DNA from: Paracyclopina nana
Taxonomy: Eukaryota > Arthropoda > Copepoda > Cyclopoida > Cyclopettidae
Direction: 5' to 3'
NCBI GenBank assembly: GCA_019096065.1
Contig: JAGUCH010000002.1
Location: 10,366,501-10,430,500, forward strand
DNA: 64,000 nucleotides
Made by a program: the position numbers and the translations under genes
Part shown: in pieces, positions 2,501 through 53,178 of the stretch
Position numbering within the stretch: the first letter of the stretch is position 1
Layout: each line of letters begins with the position of its first letter
Notes under the pieces: model-generated
Databases searched by the model: none
The model's input: the letters and a program-made list of their open reading frames with translations, nothing else
Told to the model about the DNA's origin: nothing

Positions 2501-2507
2501 ATATCTC

Positions 2508-2513
2508 AATAAA
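2508..2513 (+). terminator. Poly(A) signal of the dehydratase gene
   Basis: AATAAA lies 8 bases after the TAG stop at 2498-2500, the expected place for a very short 3' UTR. Confidence 0.7.
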
Positions 2514-2689
2514 GGTGTCATGATTTCTTTCATTTGAGCATATTAGCTAGATAAAGGTAGTGCGCATGATCTACTCTGCCAGCTGCTTTCTCCTCTCGCT
2601 CCGTGAATTATTAAGCAAGCAGGACTTGAGGTAACAGGTAATAATATACAAGGCTGAGCAGTTGGATTGTTGCAGCCCAAATCAGAGCT

Positions 2690-18211: not shown

Positions 18212-21200
18212 ATGAAGCCCCACGCCGCATCACGGGCTTTGGCATTGCTATCAATATTAACCGCTGCCCGTGCAAGTGAGTAGCATGCTCTCCAAGCACC
18301 AGCTGCAAATCATGCCTCGTTCCCTTTAGGCCCCATTCTGGAGCCGCGCCGGGATGCGGAGCGACCAGGCTGTTTCCAACGCCATTGTTTGGCCGACGAC
18401 GGGTTGGGAGGATTCCAAGTGGGCAAGACCTACTTGTACAGCTACGGCGTGACCACCCTTTCGGAAATGCGAGGCGCTTCCCACCAGCGGGCCAAGCTTG
18501 ACCTGAGTGCCAGGGTAGCCATTCGCGCTGACTCCCCGTGCGAGTACACAGTTGAGGTAACGTAGCGGTAGACGGACGGATTGCAAGTCAATTCGCGCTT
18601 CCTCTCGCAGGTGGAGAAAGTCGCATCGGAAGGAGACCACGACGTGGACGCGCTTGAGGCTGTTCGGCACCACCCGATCAGGTTTGCCGTGGAGGGCCAG
18701 ACCATCGTGGAGGTGTGCAGTCATCCGCGTGACCCCGACTGGGTGGTCAACGTGAAGAAGGCAGTCGTGTCTGCCTTGCAGCTGAGCGTGAACCCGCGGC
18801 TCCAGCATAGGGGAAACGTGACCGAGGTAGGCAGTTCACTTGTTCGTCCACGATCATTGCCACACTCGAGTCTTTAGACCGACGTCGTGGGCACTTGCCT
18901 CACCGAATACGCAAGAACGCTGGAGTCACTGCTGCCTCGCGGCAGGATTGCCTATCGGAAAACCAAGTTCATGGAAACCTGCGAGAATAACCAAAGATTG
19001 TTCCAGTTTGCCCTCAACTTACCGGACGTGAATGTTCAAAATCTCCCTCTCTTGAAGTGAGTGGTCGCCGGCAACGTTCTTGCTGACGTGCTGACATGCA
19101 CGTGCTTTCATTTCAGGAGCGAACACGTCTGCGATGCATCGATGGACAGCAATGGTCTGATTGTCTCGTCCGAATGTCGCGAGTCCCATAGGTTCCAGCC
19201 CTTCAGCTCGAGGACTTCCGGCGCCACCACGCATGTCACGCAAAGTCTCGCCTTCATTGAATCCTTGACCCGCGATCATGCGGTTTCCCTCGAGTCGGGC
19301 CTTGTCTCCAACCTCGAGTATTCGCATCCAGACGCGGGAGTCGGCAATCCCGAAAGTGAAGCTCGGTCCATCCTCACCCGTTTCTCCGCCTCCCCCGAGC
19401 CCGCCAAGGCCGAACTTTTCATGAGCCTCGTCCATTTACTCCGCCGCCTTAGCTACCCAGAGGTGGCGCGCGTATTTTACGGAACGAGCGGCGACGCTCG
19501 AAAAGTGCTGCTTGACGCCATTCCGCTCATCAAGAGCGAGGCTGGGGTTGCACTCATGGCTGAGGTTATGCGAAACAAGCTCGTCCCCCTCTCGGAGCTG
19601 GATGCCTGGTACTCTACTTTGTCATTCTACAAAAATCCAACAAGGGCCATGATAACTGCCGTGTCCGTAAGTAGAACAATGCTATCTATCATATCCAGAC
19701 CTGGGCGTGATGGATTGAATCAGAAAAAGTTGCCTTACTTTTTGGTGCTCAACACTCAATAGAAAACATGTTCATGGCGGCTGCGTCCCGTTTGCTCTTG
19801 GCCATTTGCTCTTGGCCATTTGCTCTTGGCCATTTGCCCATTAAACTTTTGCCCTTGGGGACTTTTGCCCTTGGGGACTTTTGCCCTTGGGGACTTTTGC
19901 CCTTGGGGACTTTTTCCCTTGGGGACTTTTGCCCTTGGGGACTTTTTCCCTTGGGGACTTTTGCCCCTGGGGACACTTGCCCTTGGGCTACCTTTAGGGA
20001 CAATTGCTCTTGGGGACCTTTGCCCTTTTTGGACTTTTTTGAAGTTCTGATAGTTTGCTGATGGTTTGGTGATAGTTTGCTTTTAGCCTACGATTAAAGC
20101 ATAAAGAGAGGTAAATCTGAATTTTGTCCGGTGTGTGGGTACAAGTCCATTTGATCTACTGGACATAGCAAAAGTAACCATTAGAAGAGTCCTCATGGGC
20201 AAAAGTCCCCACAGCTAAAAGTCCATATTGGCAAATATCACAAAGGGCAAAAGTTTGCAAGGGCAAAAGTTCCCAAGGGCTGAAGTCTCAAGGGCTTAAG
20301 TCCCAAGGCAAGGGCTAAAGTCCCCAAGGGCAAGTGTCCCCAAGGGCAAGTGTCCCCAAGGGCAAGTGTCCCCAAGGGCAAGTGTCCCCAAGGGCAAGTG
20401 TCCCCAAGGGCAAGTGTCCCCAAAGGCAAAAGTCCCCAAGGAACTGCTTACAGTTAGCATCCCCAAAAGGTTTTATATCGTTTTCTCATAATTATTTTCT
20501 TAAAAGTGGGATTTTAGCTAGCTAAGCTGATTTGTCTTACTTACTAACAAGTCATCCAAGTCCACTCCATCTCAACTTTTTGTTTTGAGGTATCAGAGTG
20601 TTGAGCATCTATATTTTTTCTGATTCGATCAAGAGCCTGCCTGCAGCATAGGAACTTTCCCTCTAAGTGTCAAATTAAGGCCTATTTCACTTTTGAGTAA
20701 GCTGGCCAGCGAGCCAGTGCGTATACTACAAAATATACTACATCATAACTGGAATTATTGTCATGGTGTATCCTACTTGAACATACAAAATGCACTGCAT
20801 GGAACTATTACATAGATGAGCTAGGATTGTTCAAAGAAAATTGGAACAACCTTTTTTTACTCAACCAAGTCTTATTTGATGAGTCGAATATTATAAAAGC
20901 GCTTGAAAAGCAAAGTTACAAGTTTTGCAAACTAGCTCTCAAGTCCTGCTTTGATAGTCTTGCTTTGTAAGCAAAGTCTTGTTTGCTCAATCAAGCCTTG
21001 TTTGATGAACCAAATCTGGTCTACTCAGCTAAGTCTTTCTAGACGATTTTTTCTTGGTCACGCAAGTCTTTCTTTTTAGTCAAGGCTCTTACATTAAGCA
21101 TTGCATTTGAGTGTACGAAAAAAAGAGGGACCAAAAATCTGAGAAGAAATTTGAGAAGATTCCTCCTCTCATCTCATGGCTCCAAATAAATTTATTGTAC

Positions 21201-24200: not shown

Positions 24201-27200
24201 CTCTGTATCTCTTTTCCTGGTCATCCTAGCAACTTGCTTATGAAATAAAACAAAAAGTTAGCCCTTTCGATTTTATGAGGGGTCTTTGAAGCTCTCTTTG
24301 GCGAAATAAGCACGTCGAAGAGAGCTAGAGGTTTTTTCAGATTTTATGTTATGAGGAGGGATAGGCCAGGATTTTAAAACTGCCACCAAATGAACCCTTG
24401 GGACATAGCGTTCAGAAAATATATAGGTTTAGGGGTGGTTGACGAAGTCTAGGTTAGGTTTTCTCTCAAGTCAATGTGATGTCACATTCGATTTTTCTCA
24501 ATTTTTTACATAGGTGGTACGGATGTTAATGTTACATGACGACATAAACTCAACTTGGGTAAAACGAAGGAGTGCTAACACGTTATGCAGTAACTTTCAG
24601 AAAACTTGGGAACATTTCTGGTTCGTCATGATGTCTACTCAATGTGGCTAAGCTTTTCCCTTGGAATACCATGGATCCGATAGTTTCCTACGATTATTGT
24701 GTCTCATTCGATGCTATTTTCGCTTGGATGTCTATATATAAGGCTTTCATTCGAGGACTATTTCATTGCTAGGTATTTGTTGACGGAGAGACTCCCCCCA
24801 AATCTGCTCTCATGGGTGTGTCAACCTTGGTGCAAAGTTTCTGCTTGAACCGAGCTGGATGCCAAGACTTGCCTGAAATCTCCGAAATTGTCAGCAAGTT
24901 TGAGCGGCTCCTGGGCAGCCAGTGTCACAGCATGGGGGTTGAAGAAGAGGATTCGGTCATTCTAGCGCTGAAGGCTTTGAAGAACATCGGCCACCTGGAG
25001 AGGTCCCACGAGATTCTGGAGAGGTGCTACAGCGATTACACCAATTCCATGTTCATCCGATTGGCCGCACTTGACACAATCCGACGAGTGTCTTGCGTGA
25101 GCCCGTACGATTTTGCCAGCAAGCTCTTTGAAACATTTTCGGCTCCGTCCGGTGACTCCGAGCTCCGAATTGGCGCCTATTTGGCTCTGATGCCGTGCCC
25201 CAATAAGGCCACAGTAGACGCTGTCAAGGAGCTACTCACCCATGAGGAGGTCAACCAGGGTATAGTCATGACATGTACCTTGTAGTGGGTCATTTTCAAT
25301 TGCCTTTTTTCTGCCTAGTTGGCTCGTTCGTGTGGACCCATTTGACCAACATGCAGGAGACCAAGAGTCACTTCGGCCACAAGCGCGAGCTCAAGGCTCT
25401 CATCGGCGATGGTTTCTTGCGCAACAAGTGGAAGACGGACGTGCGTCAGTTTTCACGCTACTTTGAGGCCTCCTACTATTGGCCCGAATTGAAGGCGGAG
25501 GCCGCCCTCGACGGACAGCTTATCTTCTCCCAGAACAGCTACATCCCAAGATCAGCCCTGGTCAACGTCTCGGCCAGCCTTTTCGGCCAGAGCGTTAATC
25601 TTCTCGAGTTCGGTGGCAGAGCCGAAGGCTTCGAGGATACCATTGAGAGCATGATCGGCCCCAACGGCTACTTTCGCGATGACACCTTTCACAAGTTGCT
25701 CTCGAGCTTGCGACAGAAGCGAAACTTGGCTGACTTTCAGGCCACCTTCAACCAGGACTTGCAAGGGGAGCCTCAGGCAAAACTGTTCATGCGCGTCCTG
25801 GGCAAGGAAGCACATTACCTCTCCTTTTCCGGGCTGCCCGACCTTCTTGGAGGGCTGGCCTCGACCTTCCCAGATTTTAGCCGCTCCTCCATTTTCCTTG
25901 ATGGAAAGATCGTCGCCCCCACGGTTGGTGGTCTCCCGTTGAGCCTGGGCGTGAACGGGACCTCGACGGTCAGCCTCAAGTCAATGTACACCGCCGACGT
26001 CGGCGGCCTCTTCACCACGGGCGTTGGGTCACTCACTGTAAAGGTGTACCCCTCGGCAACGGTGCGCGTGGCCGGTGTCATGTCCGTTGATGCTCGGTTC
26101 GCCACTGCAGGACTCAAGTCCGTCTGTCGCCTCCACACCTCCACCTTCATGGACGCCAAAGTGGAGGTGAGCGGCTCGAAAGTGGCAAATGTGGACGTGA
26201 ACATGCCGAGAGACACTGTGGACATTGTCGATGCCACCGTCGACTTTTTCGCCCTCGCCAACGGCAAGGAAGAGGCCATCGTGAGCAGAAACCAAAGGAA
26301 CGAGTACAAGGGCTGCACGCCTAGCCTTGTCACCGATGTGTTCGGTGTCCAATTGTGTGGCTCGGCGGTGTTCTACGACAACCTGGATGACAGCCTGGAC
26401 TTGCTCTTCGCCGGTCCCTTCTTCCTGAACGCTCAACTCCACAAGATGGACGAATTCTATAAGTACACGTTCCGCTATGCGTGGGACGATGAAGGCGAGG
26501 GGTGCTCACTGAGAGCCTTTTTTGACACCCCTGGCTCGAGGGTGAACCGCAAGTCCAACGTAAACTTGGTCTACAGCCCGCGCTCTCTCACAGTGGACGT
26601 GGAGGTGCCAATTCGCAACACCGCCTTCCACTTCGTGCACGATTGGAAGGAGCGTAAGAAGATCACCAAGGCGTCGCTCTCCGTCAACGATGAGACTATT
26701 TACAGCTCGTTTTTTGCCTACAAAAATCCACTGCCCTATGCGCACGAGGCGCACGCTATGGTCTCATGGCAGGGCTCCGAAGTGCTGCAATGGAAGGGTG
26801 AGTTGGATCTCAAAGATGCCAAGCGAACTTTCCTCAGCGATCTCCGATGGGGCATCCGTGCTCAGCCGGTGCTGGCAAGAGGTAGCGATTGAGGTTCAAT
26901 CATCACCTCTTCCTTCTATTTTTTGCCTCGCAGGAGAAATCACTTTGCAAGAGGACCACTGGCTAGTGGATGCCGCGGTAGACTCGCGATTGTTCAGCGT
27001 AGAAGTGGCTGTCATTTTTCATCATACGGACGCGTCATTCAATGCCAAAGGGGACCTGTCCTTTGCCGTCAATGGAGGCGATAAGCATGTAGTCAAGGTT
27101 GACAGTTACTACAAACTGGACACCTATGGGGTGCTGGACAAGCACGCGTTTTTTCTCCACATCAATGTAAGGCGAAATGTAGAAGCACTAATTAATCAAT

Positions 27201-30200
27201 GACATCTCTTTTTTTGCAGCCTCTCGGGTACAGCAAGTGGAACTCGGCCGTTAATTGGGAAGTGAATTTGAGCCCCAACTATTTGCACAATAACATCAAA
27301 GCTAGATACGGTCATTCTTCTTTTTCCACCGAGCAGCTATTTTCAAATCAAGCTCTCGTCAACTACCAGGAACTCTTGCTAAAGGCGTCATTTCAGTTGC
27401 CCGACATTGGCTTCGACTATCTGGCTGATTTTGAGCATCGATTGTCGCCAACAGAGAATAGTAATCGCCTCACCGTTCGCCTGTTTCCATGGGTTGACCT
27501 CAACGCGTTTGTTGGTCAACACTTTGACGAAAGCGGCTACAAGATGAAGGCTGGCTTGAAAGCCTCCGAGGTGAATGTTGAAGGAGGTCTGGAACTAGCA
27601 AGGCAACTACCCAAAACGGTCAACGGACGAGCATACGTCCAGTGGAGCGAATCCAACATAATTCGGGGTGATTTTGAGTTGAACGAGAGGAAGGCAGCAG
27701 ACGTTGACTACGTTATCACCGCAACGTTGACCATGCCTCATGGGCCTCCGATTAATGCTTCAGGAAGTGTTCAAATCACCGCTAATGCCTTCAAAGCAGG
27801 CTTTGCTTGTGGGAGGGGATCATCAGAGCTCGGTGCAAGCGCTTTGCTGCAGCGGTCCAAGGCAGGAATGTTGCTCAGAGGCAATGCTCGAACAGCTTCA
27901 ACTTCCTACGATCTATCAGTCACAGCTGAGACTGGCGATAGTGCGCAAAGGTTATCAGTGTTCCTCAACGCTGGGGTCGAGTATGTCTTCAATATTGAGG
28001 TAAGACCTTATGTGCTTGATAATGGCGCAGTTGCGGAGCACACCAGCGATTATGCAATGACAATTGATGCTTTAAGCTTGAAAAAGCTTGTTAACAATTT
28101 TTGAAAGTATGGGATCGCTTGAAGACTAAACTAAAAGAGCACTCCATCGCTTCCGGAAAATCTTCACAACCAAGGCAGCTACATAGCAATTCGTAATTTG
28201 CCAAAAAATGACCTCCCCCTGTTGAATTTTCAAAACTTCAAAATCAAAAAGCATCGAATCATTACGTTTCATGTACTACGTAATAGGGTGAACACTGAAC
28301 CGTAGAGAAAATCAGCTGCACTCATTTTGTTTAGTGATGGAACGAGTTTCAGCTTGGCTTGAAAGCTTGAAGCTAAAACCCAGCTTGAGCTATATAAGCA
28401 AAAAGCTTGGGATCGCTCGAACCAAATTTTGAAAAGCTTGAAAAAGCTTGAACCCAAAAATGCAAAGCTTGAAAAAGCTTGACACCAAAAAATTTCAAAA
28501 CTTTATCCATTTTTTATCAAAACAAAAAAGGGCAAATTTTAAAATTAGCACATACTCGAGGGAATGAAGTACTTAATCAAAGTTAAAGCTATTTCTGTCT
28601 TTATTTGCTCTTTTTGGGTAATTTTGCCAAATCTGGCGACTAATCGCCATTTTTATGTCAAAATACTACAAAAGTGAAAAGCTTGAAAAAAGCTTGAAAT
28701 GTGAAATTTCGAGCTTGAAAAAGCTTGATAATAATTTTCAAAAGCTTGGGATCGCTCGAACACATTTCTAAAAGCTTGAAGCTTGATCAAGCTGAAAATT
28801 TCCGGCTCGTTCCATCACTAATTTTGTTAAATTCGCTTCATAGAAATCCCCAGGAACTGAACGAAATGGGGTCAGCTGATGTCTCTACGCGTAACCCTCT
28901 AACGCAGTAAAACGAAGTCCCGCAGGAATATCAAGAGCCCTAGTCCAAACAGCTGAAAAAGCGTGAAAGTGCTGAATTTCGTAAATTGCAATATAATTTG
29001 AAATTTTCCGCCTTATTCTCGACCAATCAGAGAGCAGAATAAGAAAATGTTTGCTTTTAAAAACTTTTTTCTTCGCGTAATGAGTTATTTGGACTTTTTT
29101 TTGCATTGTTGGCTGTTTTATATTACTTTATATTTACCTGAGTACCCAAAAAAAGGGTTTTTCGACTCTTCCGTTTCATGCGTAACCAGCTGTCCTACTT
29201 TACAGTGGCGCCATCTAGCATGATTAATTTCAAAATCAGCTCTTATTGTAGGCAGAGACTTATATAACAAGAGAAGTGCTACTGGGCGAGGCTTAAGGGG
29301 GTGCAGATCTGCTGCACGCCTCAAAAGAGACTACAATGGAATTTTGGTCGTGGCTGCCTGAATTTGGGCCAGGGCAGACTTTTGGTTGCTAATAATTCCT
29401 AAATGAGTCAACTTAGCCAAAATACTCCGATTTTACGAGTTGATCAATTTTGCTAGGGCTATATTTTGTCTTTATTAAATATTTTCTCAACTATTAGGAA
29501 TCAAAAGTTGTAAAACAGAGGTGTCAGTTGGCGTTTTCCTTTCTGGATCAAAACAGCCAGCTGACTATTTTATTAGAGCAGCTGACCCAAACGTTTTCAA
29601 AATTACTTGTAGCACTTGGCGCGCGCTCGCGTGCTGTGAGAATGCACGAAGTAGCATTTCTAAACCTCTCCATTCCTTTTCTTAAAGACTGGTCAACACT
29701 AGGTCGACTGGATATAAAAATTGCAAAGGTCAAACTTATGTACTTGAGGTTGTGTGACGTGTATATTTTTAAATTTGCGTTCACTTAGATTTTGACCTTC
29801 GCGATTTGCTCAGCAGCGTGCGCTGGAAATCTTCCGCTCTCTATGATATCCAGGCGAACTAGTCAACACCGTCTGAGTCTTGCGGGCACGCGTTAATCCG
29901 TCTGTAGTACAGGGAAATGAGTGGAAGATGTAATGAAACGGGTCAATACTTTTAAGGCCCAATAGGAGGTATCTGTCTTGTGACAATTCTAAAGTAAATG
30001 CAAAGGTGATACAGCAAAAGATTACAAAGCTTCCAATTTTTGAAGGCACAAAGTCACCTAGGTTTTTTTCTTGGTTTGTAACAAATTAGGCAATAAGGTC
30101 AAAAGCTCAGGACTGGTAAAGACAACTTGAGATAACATTGTTCTTTCATGTCTGTCAGGGCAAAGGGGCGATAAGAAAAAGGGAAAAACTTAAAAAAAAT

Positions 30201-39200: not shown

Positions 39201-42200
39201 TTGACGGTAGCTTGGCGTTGCAATCGCCAATTCTGCCTTTCCCTCCAGTGGAGGCATCGCTGCGAGCCAAATATTCCAATCTTTTGTTTAAAGTGCAATG
39301 CTTTGGGGAGCACATACTAGAAGCTCAATTTGACCGACTGAGCCAGTCAGCTAAGGCTCGTTTCTCATCCCCTCTAATTCCTGATAAAGAGTGCTCATTC
39401 TCTGCTTCTCTCTCAGAGGCGGGAAATTTTGATGCTGTACTTCATTTTGCTGGGGATGCATTGGAAATCAACGCCTTTGCGCATCTCGAAGCGGGGCACA
39501 ATGTATCAGCGTTGTTTGTGCATAGACGTCCCTTGGGGCGCGGCGATACCGCTACTCTGAAGCTGGGATATGCATTTGCCTGCTACAAGGATGGTCTCGT
39601 GCATGTAAGCGGCTACATTGCATCCACTCATCAAGTCATTCCATTCCTGGAATTTACCCTTAATTTGGAGGAGTTAGAGAATGGACAGCGTTACAGAGGA
39701 ACTGTCATTGCTAAGAGTGCCTCGGCATATGAAGCTGTCTTAAGCTGGCCAAAAATAGCTTCAAGATCAGACTTTGCACTACTCACCATTTCTTCTTCGA
39801 ACTGCCATAGCGGCTACCAATTCAAGTTGAGTTGGGACCTCGACCAGAGCAGTGCTCTCATCATCTCAATGAATGGCCCGGCTCATGAAATTGTGGTGGC
39901 TTCAATTGTGGCAACCAGCAGCCCGATCAAGGTTACCATGGAGATAAGTTCCACTGTTAGCTTTATTCCATCGAAGGCAGCAGTGGTGCTTAAGATTGTT
40001 GGCAACTCTACAGTTGGGACTCTGTCATTGCTAACCTCTTGTAACAATGACGAAGCCTTGTTTGAGCTACACCATACCCTAACAAGTGAGAAAGTTTGCA
40101 TTCAGGGCAAATTTGTGACTCCTCAGCACAAGTACAAGCTGCAACTAGGGTATGAGAATTCTGCTAGAAAAATGCTGAGGGCCCATGTGGAGCATCCAGG
40201 CGCACAATTGGGCATTCAAATGGAATATTTCTTCTCATCATTGCTAGACTTTATTGTGGAGGCAAAAATAGATTTGCCCATTCCCATACTCAATGCAACA
40301 TTTGTCAAACTTGGACACTCATACTCTGAAAGTGAGCATTACTTGGCAATTGGAGCTGGGAAGCAGGATTTTGGTCTACTTGCTGAGTCGAGGTTGAAGC
40401 TAGCGCAGTTCTCAGCTGATCATGATTTTGAGGTCTCGTTCAAAAACTACTCACTTGCCTCGCATCTCCATGCAGACATGATTGGCATGGAAATTGAGGC
40501 CAGGTTCAACTTGAGATGTTCTCCTGAATGCCAATTTGAGACCAACTTGAAGGCCACCTTGGAGCAGCTAGGATTGGATGCCGAGTTTAGCATTGCCTAC
40601 AACCATGAGCCTAGGCTCGTCCTTTTGAAAAACTTGAACACTCGCACGATTTTGCTCCATGCTAAGAACATATTTTCTAGCGTTGAATTCAAGACAAGTG
40701 CCTTTCTTGGCGATGCATCATGGCAAAGTAGCTCGGAAGTGATTTGGGACACTTCGAGGCCAGATGAAACAAAAGAGGCAATTTCCTTTGGCTTCTGCAA
40801 AACTGAAGTGGCTCGTGAGTTTGCTGCCAGCATCACTTGGAGAACCAAGACTATTGATGCATTTTCCGCCAAGTCTGTGTGTCCATCCTCTGGAGATTGT
40901 TCGGCTTCATTGTCACTGCATCATGACAATCGCAAAATGTTTGCTATTGACTTTCATTCAAATTCAGGCACTTCCACTCAGGTACACTAGGGCTTTTCTC
41001 AGACATTTTTCTATTTTTTTTAGACAATATCTATTGCTATAGGATGCGCACGATACCAAAGTAGCTTTTGTTCTCCCAAGCCATGTCTTTGAGTATTATC
41101 ACCTACGAAAAAAGAGCCCAACTGGTATTTTCATCGAGTCTCGCCTTCTTCATGGAAAATCATCAGATTTTCTCAGAGGAGTGACATATGCATTCAGCTG
41201 TGATACCATCGATGGAAGCACTGCTTTTTCCAGCATGGAGTTGCGCCTCATTGGTAAAACCAAGCAAACTTTTTCTGCCATGTATCAAACAAAAAAGGAA
41301 TTCTGGCGGTCTTTGAAGCTGAAGTCTGTCAATGACGCGGATCCCGAGTTGACACTGCATCTCGAGGTAAGAGTTTCAGAGTACAATAATGCTCTGTTTG
41401 TCTGTTAAAAAACTCCTTTGTCTAGAAAAAGGAGCACTGTAAGTATTTTTAATTTCTGTAAAACCGCCTTTTTGGAGTGGGGATTTGAGGACTTCCTAGG
41501 GTTGGTAAAAGGCCAACTTGACAAGCTTAGGAGGCAAATAGCTCAGCAACTACTATGTCGATTGGCACCGGTAGGACTCACTAAAAGAGCCTAAAAAAGC
41601 CACCATGCCAAATTTCAACTTGATAACTTCCACCCAAAGGCTGACTTTACCTGCCCAAAAAGACAAGCTAAATGCCTAGCTTTGCTCAAAAAATGTCCTC
41701 CATTATACGGCCCCGCCGGAACCTTAACTAATTTGGAACGCATTTGTAGGTGCACATTGGCTCAGTCTCTTCTGGAGATTTCATAGTGGTATTGCCACAG
41801 TATCGATTCATATGTTGTTCCATCGCAATCTGCTCAGTGCATAAGATACGATAATGACCGTGGCATGGTCGCTATGAAATCTCCAGAAGAGACTTAGCCA
41901 TTGTTACGAATCCTACCTTTGATGCCAATAATACACTCAGTATTTGCTGAGATATTAGCCTCCAAAGATCATGGCTTAGCTTGCCTTCGACAATAGGAAA
42001 TCGGCCTAATGTCTTTGTTGCTTGTGCAAGGCCAAGGGAATCTAACGAAAGGCTCCATATCTTCTGCGTCTTTGATCGTAGCATGGTTGCGGTTGTTATC
42101 GGTTATTACTATTAGCTGAGACGGTCGAGCAGTACATAAGCTCTGACCATATAATTTCCATGATTTTGTTTGATCTAGTGCAAAGCGGCTTGGGCAGCCT

Positions 42201-45200
42201 AGACGGCTGGGTCAACTTTGATGAGCTCATGCTCACTTAGTGAGCAGTAGAGTGGACCGCAAAATTTAAGGCATATCTTGCAAAAAATTGAGCCAAAATA
42301 TCCTTCCAAAATTTAATTTTAGCCAATGCTTGAAATGTTGGGGGAAACAAAAGTAACAGGATTATACACCTCTAGGCTGTCGGATAACACTCATTATTCT
42401 CAAGCCTAGAGGTGTATAATCCTATATTATTTACTGACGAGGTTGCGATGTCAGTAAATAAGAAGCGATAACAACCGCAACCATGCTACGATCAAAGAAG
42501 CAGAAGATAATGAGCCTTTGTTAAAAGATTTTCTAAAATGGCAAAAATAGATTTCTCTACTTTGGAAGCTCATAACTCAGAAATGAGGAAGTATTGAGCC
42601 GATTGGAACCAAATTGGGAGACATTTGCTTTCCTAATTCACATGGCCATTTTGTAGCGACCCTGTCGGTAGGCCGGTCAATTTTTCCTTTTCGAGATGAC
42701 CGTCCGTTCTTAGTTCTTAGTCCCAAGGCAGCAAACTACGTGCATGCAGCCCTTTAGAGCTGTAGGCTTCGAGACAAAATTTTATTTGAATTCTGTAGGT
42801 TTCACTTCCAAAAATTTCCATAACCCAGAGCTGTACAGATAAGAGTATAACAAACCGAGCAGCTAATAGTAAGTGATGGAAAAATAAAATGCTACAAAAG
42901 AAGGCAAAAAAACAACTTTGATGAAGAAAAAATTGTCAAGGAATTAAGTAATTGTGAAATAAGTACTTAAATATGCAATTAAAATTGAGTTCTGATTGAT
43001 TAATATTTTGCATTTGCTTTGATTTTTTAAATTTCTGCCAAAGTTGCATGAAGTGGAGCTTTGAACTATCAGTGGCTTTTTATGAACAAATTCTTGTTTT
43101 GTTCCAAGAAGTGCCATAATTGCAGTACAATTGGTCCCTAAAAGGATGTGTCTGAAACACTGCCATCCCACCTCAGCAGCCATTATGAAAGTAGAGCTAA
43201 TTCTCACGCTATTGGCCGCCCATTTATGATTTTTGAAAAGTAAACAAATGTTTTTTGCATATTTTCTCCTTCAACTGACCAAGAAAAGAGCTGTGACTAA
43301 GCTTGTAGCTCTTCCAATTATTTAAGGATTTGTTTGGGACACTTTTGGATTTGGTCAATTTTCATGAAAGTCAAGACAATTGCTTCATATCCAGAAACCT
43401 GTCTTTGTCATGACAGATCGAATTATGATGAAAATTGCCTTATATTTGGTTGATCAGATAGTTAAAGAGTTTACTACAAATTCGTAACTTTTGAGTATAT
43501 AATTCAAAATTGGACTCTTTTTTTTTTGATAAAAAAGCCAATTTTTTTTATTTTCACCTAAAAGAAATGCTGTTGTTCATGCTACAGTTTTTGTACTGGC
43601 ATGGAATGTTGGCCAACTGTCTTGGTTTTCTGAAAATAGGTCTTGCAAAATTGGATTCAAAAGGATGAATTACAGGTTTGAAATGTCTTTAATGTGTGTC
43701 ATTACAAAGAGAATAAAATACTTCTTTAACTAATTTAAGGAAACTCAATTTTTGAGTTTCTGGACGAAACCTTATGTTCAGCAAAAGCTGAGTAAGCTGT
43801 TCACAAAACCCTCTCTTATTTACCGACCCTGCCATAACCCACATTAAATTATCAAAAAGTGCCTAAATTGCAAACTCTTTGAGAAAGAACCCAGGACTTA
43901 TCTGGGAGCTCTAAACGGCTGCATGTGCGTAGTTCGCTGCCTTAGGAATAAGAACGGACAGTTATCTTGAAAGGGAAAATTGACCGGCCTACCGACAGGG
44001 TCGCCACAAAATGGCCATGTGAATTAGGAAAGCAATAAATTATTGCTATGTGTTGTGAGTAATTGAAAAAGGCAAGCAGATAAAAAAGATGTTTTTGGTA
44101 TGAATTTTCATTTTCTGATCGCCCTTTGGGATAAGCTACCTGTCGCCAAAATTGTGTCATTCATTTTGCAACCATCCAAAAGATGTACCTGTCGCCAAAA
44201 TTGTGTTTAAATCATCCCTTAAGGCCACTCGCCGCCGCGCTGTTAAGGTCCGCGAGTGGTTAAATAAACCTGATTTAGCCCGGTTCCAACAAGGAAAATC
44301 AGCATAGTCAGGAGACGTAACTTGACTTTTTAGCATAGTCAGGTCACAGCTAGCTCGCGCGCTCAGCTCGACCTGACTTAACTGGTTTACCGCACTGCAC
44401 TAAGCTGATATCCCGTGTTGGAACCGGGCTATTAATTAGTTCCTTTTTGATTAGCTCCCCGTCCATAAAAAACATCTCAATGATAACTCCGCATATTATG
44501 GCTTAGATCATTCTAATGTATCATATATGTGAACCGTTTAAGATGTAATTTTACTTAAAATTACAGGCTCTGCTTGATATGAATATCCTAAGCCTTAAGG
44601 ATAGGGGATTTGACTTCAATGTCAATTACGTAATTGGAGCTTCGACTGGAGATACTTTCGCCATCTCAGGATTTATGACGGATGCCGCAAAAAAGAGTTT
44701 TGCGCTCACATTGAAAAACAGCAGCACGATCTACAAAATATTAGTAAGTTTAACATGCCCAAGTTGATCTACCACATGACCTTTTTGAGTGAAAATGTTC
44801 ACGTAACAGGTACTGAATACCGAACACAAACGCAACGCACGCTGCTTTAAGAAATACTTTTGAGAACAGTAATAATGGAATGACTCATTCAAATTGCAAG
44901 ATGATCCATAATGTAAGGTAGAGCGAGAGATTTTGATGAGAGTTCTCAACAACAGCTGAACTTTTTTGAGAAAACATTTACTAAGGTACAACTCAAACTA
45001 CTACTCCTATGGGAACGAAAATTTGAGGGGTTCATGGTTTCTCGGTAAAATTACCTAATACCAAAGAAAAAATAGCATAACACTCACGCACAAAAAAATT
45101 GGCACTAATGCCCCGTTCATCTACGACGACTATTAACTTTAGCAGTCTTACAAAACATTGTCGTTATTCTATAACGACAAAAATTGTGTTAAGTCAGCTT

Positions 45201-48200
45201 AAGACCAGTTGTTAGCTTACGAATCAGGTTAGCGCGAAGGTCAAGTTAAGCGCATGCTGGCTAGTGCTGACAAAATCAATTTTTATTTGCCTTTGTTTAT
45301 GGGCTAACCTTTCAACCTTCCTTTGGTTTAGTCCGTCCTAACGTAAGGATGAGTCTTACAGCAAGTAAAGCCGGCCTGCAAGGGCTGACAAAAACATTCT
45401 ACCAGGTCTATCATTTCAGTGGATTCTTTCGAAAGCTGCATTAGTTTGGTCAATCCTAGAAGGATTGCTTATCTAGCACCAGTCCTTACGAGCTACGACA
45501 GCTAATAGAAATTCGTGGAGTTAAGACAGCTTTTTTCGTTAGTTGGGACAAGTAAGTTATGAAAAAATAGAGTAGATGAACAGGGCATAAAATCTAAATT
45601 TGAATTGCTCGCTTCGCACAATTGACGACAAAACTAAAAAAAAACCAAAGTTTGGTGGACCCTCCAGGGCGTTCCCGTATTGGTGGGTTTTAGGATCTAA
45701 AATCAAAGTGGGTTTTACGATCTAAAAAATTGGGTTTTAAAGCCTACAGATTTGGCATCAGGGTATTAAGATCTAAGTGGAAAAATCAAATAAAGTTCAT
45801 TATGGGTTTTAATATCTAAAGGCTAGGGTTTTAATAACTAAAGGCCTAGGTTTTATTATCTAACAGAACAAAAAAATATTCTCAAAACCATTTAGCCAAC
45901 TAAAACCTGAGAAAGCATTACATGAAAATTAAATGCTAAATGCTTAAATGCTATTAGTGAAGTTTTGATAATTGACATTTAATGTTCCAACATTTTAGAC
46001 TTTAAAACCCACGCCTTTAGATCAAAACACCCAGGTACAACAAAATGATGCTTTTCCAATGTAGATCTTAAAACCCAGGTGACTAGATCTTAACATCCAG
46101 TTGTTAGGCTTTAGCATACAAATCTTTAGATCTTAAAACCTAGGAGAAAAAAAGCTTAGGCTTTAAAACCCATCTTTATAATAGATCCTAAAACCCACCC
46201 CTATTTTAGGCTTTAGTGACTTCTCCCGTTAAGTTTAGTTCAGTTCTGTTCCCAGATATTTATGCTGGTAGAACTTAACTTTGCTTGATTTGGCTAGAAC
46301 AAGCTGAACTTAACTGATCAAGCAAGGTTGCTGTTTTAGCAAAGTAACTTGACTATAAATTCGAATATGGGATCGCCCTTCCCGCCCTGTCACATTGTAT
46401 TTGGAGGAATCGCGTAACATTCGTTCTCGAATCGGGAACCAAAGTTCTGGTGGGGTAGGGGTTCCAATAACGGGCTTCCTTTTCGACCTAATATCGCACC
46501 TCCATTTTATTACTGGCAACCTCAAAATTATTGTCTTATTCTTTTGGTTCTGTTTAGGGTGAGCTTGATATGGATTCTTCCAGAGGCGGATTTTCAGTGA
46601 CTAGAGATGAGTTTGTGGTTGGGACAATTAATGGCGCTATGAATACGACTGTACCGTCGGTATCGTTTGAAGCAGAGTTAGGCGGAGGGAACGTTCGCGC
46701 CTACGCAGGACTGACCGAGCCCAACCTGATTGAAATTTTCGTCCGAGGCTCTGGTTCGCCGTTGCATCAGGAGTCCATTGAAATGGTGGCGAGTGTTGGA
46801 TTATCTCCGAATGGACGGACACTCACTTCGAACATGACCTGGACTCCGCTCGCCCATGAGAGGCTCATTGAAGTGACGCCTTTCTCCCTCGACCCAACTG
46901 TAATTTTGCCACCTCAGCTGCGCAATATCAGCTCCGTCGTTCGAGCAATCGCAAAGAACTCGTGGGCAACGAGCATTCAGGACCTAAGAACCAGTCTGGA
47001 GTGGGATGGGGCCATCTATGAAAATGTGCTCGCCGACCTCAATCACAATCTGAAGAGCCTTCACGTGGCCGAGCCTCTGGATGCAGTCATCAAAAGCTTT
47101 AGCGACAGCATAGCTCAATCTTTGCAGCTCATGTAAGTTAACTTGCTTTTGCCCGTCGGATATTTTTTCACCCTTTTCCCCTTACTTGAGACGTGGTCCA
47201 CGTAATACTCCTATTGCACTCCCTATTATGCCTTCCACCATTTTGCATGCTTGCCCTTTTTCCATTTCCTCCTTTCGCTTTTGATTATTCCATCATAGCC
47301 TTTTAAGGGTTTAAAAAGCAAACGTAGCCTGATATGGTGCTGGTGCGTTACGACAAAACCGAGCACGAGGACATTTGCCTCTAAAGGACTTATGCCTCCA
47401 TGTAGCTTTGTTCGACGTGCTTTGATCGTAACTACTTTGATTTCAGCACTTCGGTGATGAAAATCGGATTTCAATCTTTGGACAGACTTGTTGAATTCTG
47501 TGGACGAACCCTACCTGAATTGCTTGATTGTACTGCCAACTTTCTCGGAGATCTTCTCCGTGATTCTGGAGGCTTCATTCGTAGCGTCTTCGAAAATATG
47601 GCTTTCAAGGTCAACGTTGAACTTCCCGATGAGAAGTTAAGAATGATCGTTGTGGCAGCGCATGATGCTCTTTTGTGGGTTTCTCAAGGCTTTGGCGACT
47701 TGAAGAACGATCTTTCAAATGCGGGTGGTGAACAGCTGAGCCTTGCTTGGGTCAACACTAGAAGAGAAGTTTGGAAATATCTAAAAAGCATCGAGGAATT
47801 GGCTCTGGTGATGGACGTTTATTATGAGTACCAAAGCTGGTTGGAAGAGGTGCATTTTTCCGCTAAAATTGACATGGCTACGCGAGAGCTTGAGAGGTGA
47901 GCATTTTTGGCAAGTCTGCCCGCGATCGGTTTTTGCCTATGGAGGAATATTCCATCATAGCCTTTAAAAAAAGCAAAAGTAGCCAGATATGGTACTGGTG
48001 CGTAACGACAAAACCGAGCAGCTATCGTCATTATGCTCCATGTTTGCAGATGTGTGAGCAGGACGTTGGCGCAGATGAGCTCCGCCAAGGCAAGTGCGCT
48101 GGGTTGGTGGTCGTGGTGGATGGACGAGATGACGAGCTATCCGCTGATAGCCTACGCCGGCTCAGTGGGGCGAAAGGCGTTGAGGGTGGCCCATGGGTTG

Positions 48201-51200
48201 GTGGAGGAGTATGGGTTGGGCAGCGGCGTCCGCTCGCTGGCGAGCCGCGCGCTGGGGCAAGCGGAGGCTGTCTGCTCCGTCGTCTCGCGCCTCGTGGACG
48301 TGGCGTTGCACCGCGAGGCCCTCGTGGACTACGACTTCGCGTTCGATTTGTCCGCCGGCTACGCGCGCTACGCCCAACTGTTGCCTTTCCAGTGGTACAG
48401 GTTCGGCGAAGCGCCCGACCTCGCCAAAGCCATCGACCTGCTGACGACGGCCGACCATCACCGCCTCGACTATCTCGCCTTCCAGCACGAAATTGTCGAG
48501 CTGGTGGGCGTGGTGAGCCAAGCCTTGGACTCTCACCACCTCATCCCGCCCTTCTCCGCCTCCGCCCTCTTGGCCGGGGACGCCCACATCGTGACCTTCG
48601 ACCAGAGGTTCTATGACCTCTCGCCCGCAGCGGGCTGCTCCTACTTGTTGGCCTCGGACTTCTCGCAAGGCCGGTTCAGCGTGATTGCCAAGTACGACGC
48701 GCAAATGAGGCGTAGCGCCGTGGACGTGGTGAGTGACGGCCGCACCATCAGCGTGCACACCGCCAACAAGGGGGAGGACGTGATCAAGGTGACCGTGGAC
48801 AAGCGGACGACCGAGCTGCCGCTCGCCTTCGACCGCACCTTCGCCTACCGCAGGGAAGGAGCCGTCGTCATCGAGGTGGCCGACGGGCTGAAGGTGATTT
48901 GCGGCCCCTTCAACGTCTGCTCTTTCACCCTCAGTGGGTGGCAGTTCGGCAAGACTGGCGGCTTGCTTGGCACCTTCGACAACGAGCCCGCCAACGACTG
49001 GATGACCCCAAGGAGGCAGCTGACACCCGACCTCGGAGCTTTCGCGTCCTCGTGGTCGCTCAATGCCTGTCCCCCTCAACCGAGCAAGGAGGTCGTGACC
49101 AACCGCCAGGTGGACGAGGTGGAGGCTTGCGAGGCAGTGTTTAGCCGCAACGACTCCGCGCTGATGCCGTGCTTCGCCGCCCTCGATCCGCACCCCTTCC
49201 GCCGCATGTGCCTCAGCGACATGAAGGGCGTGAAGAACGAGGCCGTGAAGAGCGGTGGTGTGTGCGGGGCCGCGGCCGCCTACATCCAACAATGCCGCCT
49301 GCTCGGGGTCGAGCTGTGGATGCCGAGCGCGTGCGTGCGCTGCGACAACTCCCTGCACCACGGCGAGTCCTCCATCTACGAGAACAACAGCCCAAAGTCC
49401 GCAGACGTGGTCTTCATCGTGCAGCAGTGCTCGGCCTCAGCCGACCTCGCGCAGCTCCCGCACCTTATCGACACTTCCTTGACAGCCAAGGGCCTCGTCA
49501 ACAACAGATACGCCCTTGTCGGATTTGGAGGAGGCAACCAATTAGACCAGCCACTCATTTTCACCTCGGGCAGCAGGGTTTTCAATCGCCCGCTCAAAAT
49601 GGGCCTCGCCTTGGCTAAGTAAGTCTGCAAATAAGTATGATTAAGCAGTTTAGGATGGAGCTGACCGCGCGACCCACTATACTTATAAGCATAAGTGAGC
49701 TAGTGTCCACACTTCTACTGATTTCCTTGTTGATCCCGGTCTTATGCAAACATGGCTTTTTAAATCGCAACGTAATTGTCTGTATGGGAATCGAATCGAC
49801 ATAGTTTTTGCGTTTTTGCAAAGCCGGCTAAGCTAACGTGACGTCATGAGCGGACGATCTTTGTTGATCTGCTTCTCAATAGAGCTACAAGCAGTGAACT
49901 AATTAATAAGAGGCCTAATGTACTGTTCATCTACCGTTCCTCTAGGAATGCATTATGACAAAACCATGCATAATGACAGCTCTACGCAGCTGGTTTATGT
50001 ACTGAGAACTTCTTTGCGCAAAGGAATTTCGAGTTCCGATTCCTTAAGGAGTTTGTAGATGAACAGAGCATTAAAGCTATTTTTTGCATTCATGATATTA
50101 CTGGTCGACCAAATTTCAGTTTTTAGGCCTTTTTAAAGCTATTTTTTGCATTCATGAATTTCTGGTCGGCCAAATTTCAGTTTTTAGGCCAACTTTCTCT
50201 GATGATGAAGCCACTTTCAAAAACGTGAATGTGTACACTGTTGTGTGCTCATCTGAAGTAACTTGACAGATTCTCCTAAGATCAGACCAAGGATCAGTCA
50301 ATCACACAACTAAATAAGGAGATTAAGTGGAAGGGTGGGGAAATGCTAGGTAAGCTAGCAAAGTGACAAATAAAATTAACTCCATGGCCTACTTCTAATG
50401 CTGTGTTCACCTACCAAGGAATTTTTTTCCTTCCGTTAAATTGCGTTTTACTTAAGCTTCCTATTTCAGAACTGATCATTTTAGGGCGTTCTCATATCGC
50501 AGTTTGGTCTAACCAAAACTGATTTTAGTTTAACCAGACTGAACCACGCTGACTAATGCTCTGTTCATCTAGAAACTCCTTAAGGAATCGGAACGCGAAA
50601 TTCCTTTGAAGGAGTTCTCACTACATAAGCTAGCTGCGTCGAGTTGTCAGTTTTGGTTAAACTAAAGTGCGATATGAGAACGCCCCTTTTACTCACTTTT
50701 CATAGCTTCATTCAAGCCACTTTTCCGACCTCTTTTGGACATATTAGCTAGAAGTGTTTTGATTAATCAGAAGTACGAAAACTTAAGCATTTCCTTTAAG
50801 GATGTCGTAAGATTTTAAGGAAACGAGGCATAGATGAACAACCTATAAGCCTGTACTATAAAACAAAAAATGAAGCTTTTCAATATCTTTTACTTCTCAA
50901 AATAAAATTTGCTTTGTAACAATGGGATGATCTTTGGAAAAAAGGCTTGAAAAATTACATTGCTCACAATTAGATTCAGTCAATATGATGTTTAATTTGG
51001 TCGTTCAAGCACATGCAGTGATACGCCAAATCAGCCTTGATCACCTTTACTATTCGGTAGAGTCCATCTACATGAACCTATTTAGATTAAAAATGTAACA
51101 TTACTGTCCTGATGACTTGTGTTCTAGAAATTACTCCGCCCACTACGCTCCACTACGTTATAGGGTAACATACACAGAAAATGAGAGGTTTCAGTGATTC

Positions 51201-52969
51201 TTCATTTGGAAACCATTCGGAACAGCTGTCAGCCAGGCCGGTTGTGGCCGGGCGAATCAGTACATAAACTAGCTGCGTAGAGCTGTCATTCTGCATGGTT
51301 TTGTCATTATGCATTCCTAAAGGAAAAGCGCCATCTATTGAAATGATACCGCATTTAGCAATGATTGTTGAGATCTTGGGTGAGCACATTAACGTCGACT
51401 TTAGAGTTGTTTTTACGTCGAATGAATGAGTTGTAATAGCGATGCCATTTGACGACTCATTAGCGAAAAACCCTATGGGAACACGTAAACAGGTCCCATA
51501 TCTATCCTGCCGGCGAATTACATAACATTTTGGAGGTCCGATTGCTGCCTGCATCAGATCTACAATTTCTAATGAATCAGTTTTTCTCATTGATTTTTTT
51601 CACAAGGAGGGATTTTAGCCCGGTTCCAACACGGGATATCAGCATAGTATAGTACGGTAAACCAGTTAATGCCCTGTTCATCTACAACGACTATTTCAGT
51701 CGTAACTTTAGCAGTCTTACAAAAAATTGTCGTTATTCTATAACGACAAAAATTGTCTTAGGTCAGCGTAAGACCAGTCGTTAGCCTACGTATCAGGTGA
51801 GCGCGTTAGTCAAGTTAAGCAGCATGCTGGCTAGGGCTGACTAAATCAATCTTGATTTGCCTTTGCCCAAGGGCCAACCTTCCACCCTTCCTTTGGTTTA
51901 GTCTACCCTAACGTAAGGACAAGTCTTACAGCAAGTAAAGCCGGCCTGCTAGGGTTGACTAAGATATTCTACTAGGTCTATCATTTCGGTGGATTCTTTC
52001 CCAAGTTGCATTAGTTTAGTCAATCCTAGGGGGATCGCTAAAATAACACCAGTCCTTACCAGCTACGACTGCTAATAGAAATTCGTGGAGATACGACAAC
52101 TTTTTTCGTTAGGTAAGACAAGTAAGTTACGAAAAAGTTGAGTAGATGAACAGGGCATAAGTCAGGTTGAGCTGAGCGCGCGAGCTAGCAGTGACCTGAC
52201 TATGCTAAAAAGTCAAGTTACGTCTCCTGACTATGCTGATTTTCCTTGTTGGAACCGGGCTTTTGTCAAGCGTAACTTGTTCTTAGGGAAAGAAAGTACA
52301 TATTTTATTGCAATTTGGCCTTATTTTGATCCTATAATCTCAGCAAAATACAAGGATTTTCGCTTCACTGCCCTATGTAGTGAACCCACCGCCAAGTTGA
52401 CTAAAATGAAAGTTCTACTATCTTTCAGCCTAAAAGATGATGGTCCCGAAAAGGTGGACGTTGGTCAAGCACTTCATTTTGCTGCCAGGTTGAACTTTCG
52501 CCCTGGCGTCATCAAGACCTTTGTGGTAGCTACCTGCAACAGCTCCAACATGTTGTCTGCTAATGAGTATGGTGACGCCATGACCATGCTCACCGAGCAA
52601 GGGATTGTGGCTCATCTGGTGACCCCTCTGAGCCTCAAGACGGGCATATTTGGTTTTTCGCGCAGTGGAGTGATCCGAGGCAGCGGGCTCGATGAAGATT
52701 CATCCCAGCGGCGAGCTCTCAAGGTGCCAAAACAGTTGCTCACCACTCTGGTACAAGATGTCAACGGAGTTGTCTTTGACTTGGACAGGCTTCGCCGGCA
52801 ACAGAAGCGAGCTTCCAACGCCTTCACCAAGGCCCTCGCGACTCTCACTAAACCGTTGGAGTGTCAAGTGTGCGACTGCCTTAGCGGCGCAGACGCCTCA
52901 GCCCGGCTAATGTGCCACAAGTGCATCCTTCCCTCCATTGATCTTGTCCTTCAGGACATGCAAATGTAA
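18212..52969 (+). CDS. Giant large lipid transfer protein (apolipophorin-like), about 6,062 aa
   Basis: Secreted haemolymph lipoprotein scaffold of the vitellogenin/apolipophorin/apoB superfamily. Seventeen exons, all in phase: 18212-18275, 18330-18556, 18611-18826, 18878-19056, 19117-19666, 24773-25259, 25319-26881, 26934-27166, 27220-27999, 30714-31064, 31127-40981, 41043-41366, 44567-44743, 46558-47132, 47447-47896, 48050-49618, 52381-52969. Residues 1-21 are a signal peptide ending TAARA. Vitellogenin-N follows (YLYSYGV near residue 57; VGSFVWTHLTNM near 574). R-N-Q-R near residue 897 is a minimal furin-type motif. Residues ~1100-5000 are amphipathic beta-rich lipid-binding sequence. C-terminus: vWD (~5518-5690, GLLGTFDNEPANDW), C8-like cysteines (~5704-5773), a vWA-like fold (~5794-5960) lacking a DxSxS metal site, and a final Cys cluster (CQVCDC, CHKC). 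Typical apolipophorins have about 3,300-3,700 residues. Exact exon joins are my inference. Confidence 0.9.
19793..20441. repeat. Fold-back element FB3 in lipid-transfer-protein intron 5
   Basis: Left arm about 19800-20035 (GGGGACTTTTGCCCTT units), right arm about 20190-20440 (CAAGGGCAAGTGTCCC units). Spacer 20040-20185 is the reverse complement of the FB1 spacer. It sits about 130 bp after the donor at 19667. Confidence 0.85.
20442..21412. other. Part of lipid-transfer-protein intron 5, little recognised
   Basis: AT-rich sequence. Between about 20820 and 21090 the words TCAA/CAAGTC(T) TTGTTTG recur loosely, as if from a decayed repeat. No gene seen. Confidence 0.35.
21423..23075. mobile_element. 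TIR element with ATAGATGAT-rich arms and a 10-bp duplication
   Basis: Ends CTGTATAAATATAGATGCG... and its inverse ...CGCATCTATATTTATACAG, arms of about 150 bp saturated with ATAGATGAT/ATCATCTAT. Flanked by GCTTTTTGGC on both sides (21413-21422, 23076-23085). A 9-10 bp duplication fits Mutator-like elements. The interior (about 22180-22500) is related to DNA around 44800-45100 and 45588-45660. No transposase ORF. Confidence 0.75.
23086..24772. other. Rest of lipid-transfer-protein intron 5
   Basis: Contains an old repeat (24090-24480) related to glutamine synthetase intron 3. A 95-aa ORF at 23313-23600 with one hydrophobic stretch has no supporting context and I do not call it. Intron ends in TTGCTAG before 24773. 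Confidence 0.4.
28332..28820. mobile_element. hAT-type MITE with an AAGCTTGA-saturated interior
   Basis: 489 bp, termini TAGTGATGGAACGAG / CTCGTTCCATCACTA, perfect 8-bp duplication ATTTTGTT (28324-28331, 28821-28828). Interior carries many AAAAGCTTGA units on both sides. In intron 9 of the lipid transfer protein gene. Confidence 0.9.
29253..30378. mobile_element. hAT-type element (CAGAGACTTATATA termini), Harbinger-free copy
   Basis: Left end at 29253, right end AAGTCTCTG at 30378; flanks ATTGTAGG and ATTGTAGC (7 of 8 match). Bases 29253-29680 match, inverted, the hAT element at 6105-6510 and preserve the site where the Harbinger inserted there. The middle (29790-30060) is unrecognised. In intron 9 of the lipid transfer protein gene, 335 bp before exon 10. 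Confidence 0.75.
31127..40981 (+). other. 9,855-nt single coding exon of the lipid transfer protein
   Basis: Exon 11, 3,285 codons without a stop, more than half the protein. Beta-rich, low in cysteine, with a recurring T/S-P-x-x-G-[FY]-E motif (34.1-36.0 kb). Its central part is visibly more AT-rich than the exons at either end of the gene. Confidence 0.9.
41759..41899. mobile_element. 141-bp hairpin MITE (GGCTNAGTCTCTTCTGG termini)
   Basis: Inverted ends GGCTCAGTCTCTTCTGGAGA / CTCCAGAAGAGACTTAGCC with ATT duplications (41756-41758, 41900-41902). Same family as 54977-55122. In intron 12 of the lipid transfer protein gene. Confidence 0.85.
42061..42506. mobile_element. TIR element containing a perfect 21-bp hairpin stem
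   Basis: Inverted ends CTTCTGCGTCTTTGATCG / CGATCAAAGAAGCAGAAG. Inside, at about 42358-42425, AGGATTATACACCTCTAGGC and its exact inverse form a stem around a loop of roughly 25 nt. Non-coding; class not assigned. Confidence 0.65.
42625..44040. repeat. Inverted pair of about 125-bp arms, 1.4 kb apart
   Basis: 42625-42753 and 43916-44036 are inverted copies (for example GGTAGGCCGGTCAATTTT and AAAATTGACCGGCCTACC). A third, solo copy lies in the Cdc20 intron at 62465-62570. The DNA between the arms is AT-rich with no gene seen. Probably a non-autonomous TIR element. Confidence 0.6.
44277..44430. mobile_element. 154-bp MITE, AGCCCGGTTCCAAC family (intact)
   Basis: Termini AGCCCGGTTCCAAC / GTTGGAACCGGGCT; interior has GGAGACGTAACTTGAC, a GCTCGCGCGCTCAGC core and GCTGATATCCCGTG. 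Flanks TTT and ATT only partly match. In intron 12 of the lipid transfer protein gene. Confidence 0.85.
45109..45587. mobile_element. MITE, TGCCCTGTTCATCTAC family
   Basis: 479 bp, inverted ends TGCCCCGTTCATCTAC / GTAGATGAACAGGGCA style (left base changed), duplication TAA on both sides (45106-45108, 45588-45590). The uninterrupted target survives at about 22400-22430 (GGCGCTAAAATCTAAATTTG). In intron 13 of the lipid transfer protein gene. Confidence 0.88.
45682..46200. repeat. Element with GGGTTTTA/ATCTAAA-saturated inverted arms
   Basis: Left arm repeats GGGTTTTAGGATCTAAA-type words; right arm repeats their inverse (GATCTTAAAACCC). Outer ends GGTGGGTTTTAGGATCTA / TAGATCCTAAAACCCACC. No clean target duplication. 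In intron 13 of the lipid transfer protein gene. Confidence 0.7.
47287..48020. repeat. Homologous ~75-bp segments in two consecutive introns
   Basis: 47287-47365 (intron 14) and 47949-48020 (intron 15) share ATTCCATCATAGCCTTT, AAAAAGCAAA, GTAGCC and CTGGTGCGT...ACGACAAAACCGAGCA in the same orientation. The intervening exon 15 is unique. Confidence 0.8.
48050..49618 (+). other. vWD / C8-like exon of the lipid transfer protein
   Basis: Exon 16, 523 codons, very GC-rich. Begins in a Trp-rich helical segment (ALGWWSWWMDEM), contains the full vWD (AGDAHIVTFDQRFYDL to SLNACP) and the C8-like cysteine set (CEAVF, PCFAAL, MCLSD, VCGAA, QCRLL, ACVRC), and ends inside the vWA-like fold, which is completed by exon 17. 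Confidence 0.85.
49919..50071. mobile_element. Diverged short MITE, TGCCCTGTTCATCTAC family
   Basis: Ends TGTACTGTTCATCTACCG and TGTAGATGAACAGAGCA, left flank TAA. About 150 bp. In intron 16 of the lipid transfer protein gene. Confidence 0.65.
50399..50845. mobile_element. Diverged MITE of the TGCCCTGTTCATCTAC family, host of a Harbinger MITE
   Basis: Left end TGCTGTGTTCACCTACC, right end ATAGATGAACAACCTA, duplication TAA (50396-50398, 50846-50848). Interrupted by the element at 50483-50686. Confidence 0.6.
50483..50686. mobile_element. Harbinger-derived MITE sharing the AGGGCGTTCTCATAT termini
   Basis: 204 bp; AGGGCGTTCTCATATCG at the left, CGATATGAGAACGCCCC at the right, TTT duplications (50480-50482, 50687-50689). 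Subterminal GGTCTAACCAAAA matches the right end of the full-length Harbinger (6511-10867). Likely mobilised by that transposase. Confidence 0.88.
51617..52261. mobile_element. AGCCCGGTTCCAAC MITE split by another MITE
   Basis: Termini as in 44277-44430, duplication TTT (51614-51616, 52262-52264). Removing 51670-52157 leaves a standard-length copy. Its right end lies about 120 bp before exon 17 of the lipid transfer protein. Confidence 0.88.
51670..52157. mobile_element. Nested MITE, TGCCCTGTTCATCTAC family
   Basis: 488 bp, perfect ends TGCCCTGTTCATCTAC / GTAGATGAACAGGGCA-like, TAA on both sides. The empty target CCAGTTAAGTCAGG is seen, inverted, in the intact host copy near 44385. Confidence 0.9.
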
Positions 52970-53172: not shown

Positions 53173-53178
53173 AATAAA
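53173..53178 (+). terminator. Poly(A) signal of the giant lipid transfer protein gene
   Basis: AATAAA about 200 bases after the TAA stop at 52967-52969, giving a short 3' UTR. Confidence 0.6.

Follow-up and report, generated by a model that had tools for sequence, protein, structure and literature searches.

The locus and its gene model

The window, that is, the whole stretch of DNA that was analyzed, comprises 64,000 nucleotides of the genome of the copepod Paracyclopina nana (GenBank assembly GCA_019096065.1, contig JAGUCH010000002.1, positions 10,366,501 to 10,430,500 of the forward strand), and coordinates refer to it unless another contig is named. A hand-finished gene model encoding an apolipophorin-like protein occupies positions 18212-52969 of the forward strand. 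Pieces of neighboring genes were recognized for a glutamine synthetase (2800-3519, forward strand), a Strabismus protein (58234-58914, forward strand) and a CDC20/Fizzy WD40 protein (63458-64000, reverse strand). On the forward strand at 6706-7857 lies an open frame of 383 amino acids with a DDE_Tnp_4 domain, which we take to be a Harbinger-like transposase. Minisatellites with units of approximately 14-31 bases were observed at 3912-4671, at 16139-17021 and, within intron 5 of the model, at 19791-20441. In the intron 5 minisatellite a 16-base unit (ACTTTTGCCCTTGGGG) precedes an array of the complementary unit, and the two could therefore form a large hairpin.

The model was built from open frames, reading of the sequence and a splice-aware Viterbi path, with exons 12 and 13 added by hand. 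It comprises 17 exons, 18,141 nt of coding sequence and 6,046 residues. The start at 18212, the stop at 52969 and the 17 in-phase exons are those proposed in an earlier, sequence-only reading of this DNA, and the totals given there (18,189 nt and 6,062 residues) were nearly reproduced, the model being 48 nt shorter. All 16 introns are GT-AG with fitting phases, and the single stop is terminal, with none internal. The introns range from 51 nt to 5.1 kb, nine of the 16 measuring 51-62 nt; genes of this kind, which combine such introns with one 9.9-kb exon, are easily split in two during annotation.

All exons lie on the forward strand. Exon 1 (18212..18275) holds the start codon and a hydrophobic, signal-peptide-like start (MKPHAASRALALLSILTAARA), in agreement with the signal peptide claimed earlier, and was also recovered by a scan for signal exons. 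The Vitellogenin_N domain begins in exon 2 (18330..18556; hand model, Pfam and Viterbi path) and is followed through exons 3 (18611..18826) and 4 (18878..19056), both present in the hand model and the Viterbi path, into exon 5 (19117..19666), which in addition gave a Vitellogenin_N match in the genome search. The late part of this domain lies in exon 6 (24773..25259), recovered by the hand model, the genome search and the Viterbi path. Exon 7 (25319..26881, with an alternative end at 26797) encodes the open beta-sheet domain PF09172 and a furin-type RQKR motif at residues 706-709. Exon 8 (26934..27166) belongs to the hand model and the beta-rich exon 9 (27220..27999) to both the hand model and the Viterbi path; exon 10 (30714..31064) has a coding score in addition to these two. 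Exon 11 (31127..40981) is a giant exon of 9,855 nt encoding the amphipathic beta middle of the protein in a single open frame, whose length of 3,285 codons is far beyond chance. It is followed by a bridge exon, exon 12 (41043..41366), which has a coding score and shows no amphipathic beta pattern, and by exon 13 (44567..44743), an uncertain exon with a coding score only. Exons 14 (46558..47132; beta, then helical) and 15 (47447..47896; an amphipathic helical region) were identified by coding score and Viterbi path, and exon 16 (48050..49618), with the VWD and C8 domains, by Pfam, the genome search and the Viterbi path. Exon 17 (52429..52969) carries a C-terminal domain and the stop codon, and a poly-A signal AATAAA (53173..53178, forward strand) lies 204 nt past the stop.

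At penalties of -8 and -6, and with its two ends fixed as those of a single gene, the Viterbi path gave 16 exons encoding 5,959 residues. The coding statistics used were trained with exons 7, 8, 12 and 13 held out and the remaining exons included. Fifteen of the 17 exons, including exons 8 and 12 that had been held out, were identical to those of the hand-finished model; the two differences were the end of exon 7, placed at 26797 rather than 26881, and the omission of exon 13. Laxer penalties (-5 to -3) added small pieces which appear spurious. Without exons 12 and 13 the protein would have 5,879 or 5,851 residues, and the splice variants computed therefore place its length at 5,851-6,046 residues.

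Domains and family placement

Pfam searches of the translation matched Vitellogenin_N (PF01347) at residues 50-583 (2e-67, profile positions 1-589 of 590), the open beta-sheet domain PF09172 (DUF1943) at residues 618-878 (4.3e-50; 5.2e-51 by the DNA reference) and, near the C-terminus of the protein, VWD (1.9e-15) and C8 (2.8e-5). Vitellogenin-N, vWD and C8, all three named in the sequence-only reading, were thus recovered. The giant exon 11 matched no Pfam family above cut-off, and NCBIfam gave nothing in the three exon pieces searched. A further domain of that reading, a C-terminal vWA to which exon 17 would contribute, found no support in the sequence. The last 301 residues gave no hit in Pfam and none in the PDB, each searched up to E 10, a range in which HMMER's filters drop most Pfam matches above about 0.1. 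A vWA profile was also made from nine of the 11 vWA matches of this genome, translated and aligned (L020 and L027 were left out), and with it 31 of 200 shuffled copies ranked above the real C-terminal segment. The C-terminal domain, which is encoded across exons 16 and 17, is possibly a degenerate vWA fold, and the term vWA was absent for large lipid transfer proteins (LLTPs) among the matches listed in the open-access literature.

When the N-terminus was compared with solved structures, apoB-100 was the best match (113 bits), followed by lipovitellin (66 bits), and bee vitellogenin was unmatched. Six N-terminal pieces were placed in an unrooted tree, with no MTP among them and with the C1 locus described below left out, as its first piece failed to translate cleanly; the tree grouped the gene with apoB-100 against lipovitellin, bee vitellogenin and two vitellogenin genes of this genome on C7, with support of 99.4/100. 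Plain identity does not favor apoB, as it amounted to 22.5% with apoB-100 (559 positions) and 23.2% with lamprey lipovitellin (608 positions); it is the model-based tree that does. The domains, the furin-type site and the tree together support placing the predicted protein in the apoB/apolipophorin branch of the large lipid transfer proteins and bear out the apolipophorin-like identity first proposed. That the protein is instead a vitellogenin or a clotting protein is hardly credible. Both of these likewise have the LLT module and a VWD according to the available text of a comparative report (PMC1783640), and the identity to lipovitellin is as high as that to apoB-100; against them stand the length of the protein, apoB as its best solved relative, the strongly supported tree and the occurrence in this genome of two vitellogenins apart from it. 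DUF1081 is reported to be typical of the APO family (PMC1783640, available sections). This domain (PF06448), expected after the LLT module, gave no match genome-wide up to E 10, where no positive control matched either, and none in four exon pieces; it is not named for the mud crab dLp/HDL-BGBP precursor in the available sections of the report on that protein (PMC8416765).

Profile searches of the genome, which were run exon by exon and give counts that are lower bounds, found four Vitellogenin_N loci: the one studied here, two on C7 and one on C1. A VWD match lies at the 3' side of all four, and three other VWD matches over cut-off were distributed over two sites, one at C1:16.61 Mb and the other at C2:4.79 Mb. 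Of the three genome loci in the tree, only the studied one groups with apoB. The two vitellogenin genes (C7:2498554-2500581 and C7:5191876-5194344; L011-L014) are 2.7 Mb apart and share 22.6% identity across the 756 N-terminal positions aligned; against solved structures the gene at C7:2.50 Mb matched bee vitellogenin (163 bits) and left apoB unmatched. The locus at C1:788718-793312 (L015-L016) holds a VWD-bearing large lipid transfer protein, the fourth found in the genome. Its matches among solved structures were a weak one to lipovitellin (24 bits) and one to dibilinoxanthinin, a pigment protein (E 0.016), with none to apoB or bee vitellogenin, and thioredoxin-like open frames were noticed by eye upstream of the locus. 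MTP_lip_bd was not found in the genome, in a search in which no positive control matched, and no COX1 was detected in the assembly. Across the 92 Mb and 10 contigs of the genome the Chitin_bind_4 cuticle family gave at least 80 matches, an abundance which points to an arthropod genome.

One gene or two

Exon 11 is followed almost immediately by an in-frame TAG (40988-40990), which ends nine bases past the exon 11 donor. The donor concerned, at 40981, has a weak score (0.5), and upstream of the exon 12 acceptor that is used lies another AG. Gene-model scores for one gene versus two genes split at 40990, computed with no charge for gene borders, were 1780.4 versus 1781.0 at a penalty of -8 and 1810.4 versus 1809.0 at a penalty of -6, and so do not separate the two arrangements. 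A split is thus a serious alternative. Were there two genes, the first would end at this TAG and encode an apolipoprotein of 4,837 residues without VWD, and the second would encode a protein of approximately 1,040-1,210 residues with VWD and C8. The position of the stop and the lack of any preference in the scores are in keeping with such a split, as is the absence of the beta pattern from exons 12-13, which break it to a degree that none of the giant exon's 624 windows reaches. So are two published cases. In the salmon louse, LsLp1 (1,714 aa, no VWD) and LsLp2 (2,153 aa, with VWD) are reported as two genes 16 kb apart, an APO-type chain and a VWD-bearing chain in one neighborhood as at the present locus, where we infer a single gene (PMC8545670, available sections). 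The length of 4,837 residues is also close to that of the mud crab precursor (4,831 aa), for which the domains LPD_N and DUF1943 are named (PMC8416765, available sections).

The signals expected at the ends of two genes argue otherwise. The first AATAAA or ATTAAA past the stop at 40990 lies 1.9 kb downstream, compared with 204 nt past the stop at 52969. A scan of 40991-46557 for a signal-peptide-like first exon of phase 0, the phase needed by exons 12-14, found none. Run in all phases, the scan recovered three of the four first exons of known loci at a likely donor and gave one hit in a 16.2 kb control; it also returned one candidate in intron 9 (28564-28617), which was taken as chance. A hemolymph protein needs a hydrophobic signal at its N-terminus. 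Among the ATG starts in 40991-48600, 107 were scored and 30 more gave no path, and the only one whose N-terminus is hydrophobic scores 111-115 units below the best. Exon 12 itself also speaks for continuity: it follows a 61-nt intron, of the commonest class in this gene, and was recovered by the Viterbi path despite being held out of training, with the ends fixed as one gene. Its coding score was reached by 1 of 3000 null windows; for its first half alone the figures were 9 of 3000 null windows and 4 of 52 stop-free ones, and for exon 13 they were 11 of 3000 and 7 of 58. With the gene-model scores level, it is the position of the poly-A signal, the absence of a second signal peptide, the ATG scores, and the coding score of exon 12 together with its 61-nt intron that tip the balance. 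Exons 1-11 and 12-17 would accordingly be joined in one transcript, and a split into two genes is improbable. We consider it probable that a single gene encodes the precursor of a circulating lipophorin scaffold, a protein of the apoB/apolipophorin-II/I family, of approximately 5,960-6,046 residues.

Length, lipid-binding middle and proposed working

In proteins of the apolipophorin-II/I type a furin site of the form R-X-[KR]-R is expected at about residue 720. The RQKR of the single-gene precursor lies at residues 706-709, and the pattern occurs elsewhere only at 5987; in shrimp apolipocrustacein (apoCr) a furin site is reported at 725/728 (PMC1783640, available sections). Cleavage at RQKR is predicted to yield an N-terminal product of 688 residues (22-709; 76.7 kDa) and a remainder of 5,337 residues (588 kDa). 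The corresponding insect chains are given as about 80 kDa for apoLp-II and about 240 kDa for apoLp-I (PMC8545670, available sections), so the predicted N-terminal product is of normal size and the excess lies in the apoLp-I part. The insect precursor, of about 3,300 residues as described in the available text (PMC1783640), shares with the present one the LLT module, a furin-type site soon after the N-terminal part and a long middle. Its VWD near the C-terminus would have a counterpart here as well, a VWD being present at our locus, if exons 1-17 belong to one transcript.

The sequence-only reading had placed the extra length in the lipid-binding middle, which agrees both with the normal size of the N-terminal furin product and with an amphipathic beta pattern running through the giant exon. 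The proportion of beta-amphipathic hydropathy windows was 0.29-0.33 across the four parts of this exon versus 0.14-0.18 in shuffles, and residues 5131-5500 were alpha-amphipathic (0.39 versus 0.17 in shuffles). An AlphaFold2 prediction made with no alignment for 1,000 residues from exon 11 had a mean pLDDT of 33 and was unusable. The middle of human APOB is likewise encoded by a giant exon. Among solved structures the N-terminus has its best relative in apoB-100, a protein described as a globular N-terminal part passing into an amphipathic beta belt (PMC12419007, available sections). ApoB-100 differs in being shorter (4,563 aa) and in having no VWD, as far as the available sections of PMC8545670 describe it.

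The great length, the APO type and the common N-terminal domains are shared with the crab dLp/HDL-BGBP precursor as the available sections of its report present it (PMC8416765), and would suit a crustacean-type precursor that is cut mid-chain into three subunits, one of them binding beta-glucan. While the crab protein has furin sites at 2,990 and 4,096, however, the two R-X-[KR]-R patterns found here, near the two ends of the chain, leave none near either position. The locus also has a VWD, a domain reported to be absent from the crayfish protein (PMC8545670, available sections). A precursor of this kind is therefore very unlikely.

The protein had been ranked among the largest of its superfamily. 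This stands against the known lengths compared, including apoB-100; the yardstick then applied to arthropods (3,300-3,700 residues) was too low, since it missed the crustacean precursors, such as that of the mud crab Scylla paramamosain with 4,831 residues (PMC8416765, available sections). ApoCr has about 2,600 residues (PMC1783640, available sections). No LLTP longer than the present one was found among the matches listed in the open-access literature. The gene belongs to a known family, in which it is unusually long, and its interest lies in its length alone. A crayfish precursor is reportedly of 4,889 residues (Stieb et al. 2014). If exons 1-17 form one transcript, the size range of the family, whose members transport fat in animals, is widened by about a quarter over the crab precursor, with growth confined to the lipid-binding part, and how particle size relates to belt length becomes testable in a living animal.

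Most likely the protein serves as an ordinary lipophorin scaffold, and the working proposed here rests on established knowledge of the family. The precursor chain would enter the ER by its signal peptide and probably be secreted. The N-terminal lipid transfer module (approximately residues 50-880) would take up lipid with the help of MTP and nucleate the particle, which the long amphipathic beta middle (approximately 880-4835) may wrap as a belt. Furin would cut at RQKR into chains resembling apoLp-II (about 77 kDa) and apoLp-I (about 588 kDa), and the C-terminal helical region and VWD-C8 would be left exposed for protein contacts. It is conceivable, though doubtful, that this is the longest apoB-superfamily protein on record, with an unsplit precursor of some 6,000 residues, an apoLp-I chain of about 590 kDa, a belt that far exceeds the one of apoB-100 in length, and a hemolymph particle of unusual size or lipid content; if so, nature would offer a test of whether particle size is set by the length of the belt.

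Comparison of the middle (residues 881-5160) with itself by blastp gave only the diagonal up to E 1. By eye, a T-P-F-x-G-F-E-like motif was noticed in exon 11, and as the pattern [TSA][PST][FILT].G[FY][EQ] was chosen after looking it serves as a lead only. A profile made from its copies found no seventh copy above 4 bits. Exon 11 contains six copies, whereas 500 shuffles gave 0.028 on average and never more than 1; the six copies lie at 34094-35989 (residues 2540-3171), are spaced by 52, 112, 54, 167 and 240 residues, the first four spacings being near multiples of 55, and are perhaps a worn repeat of the belt.
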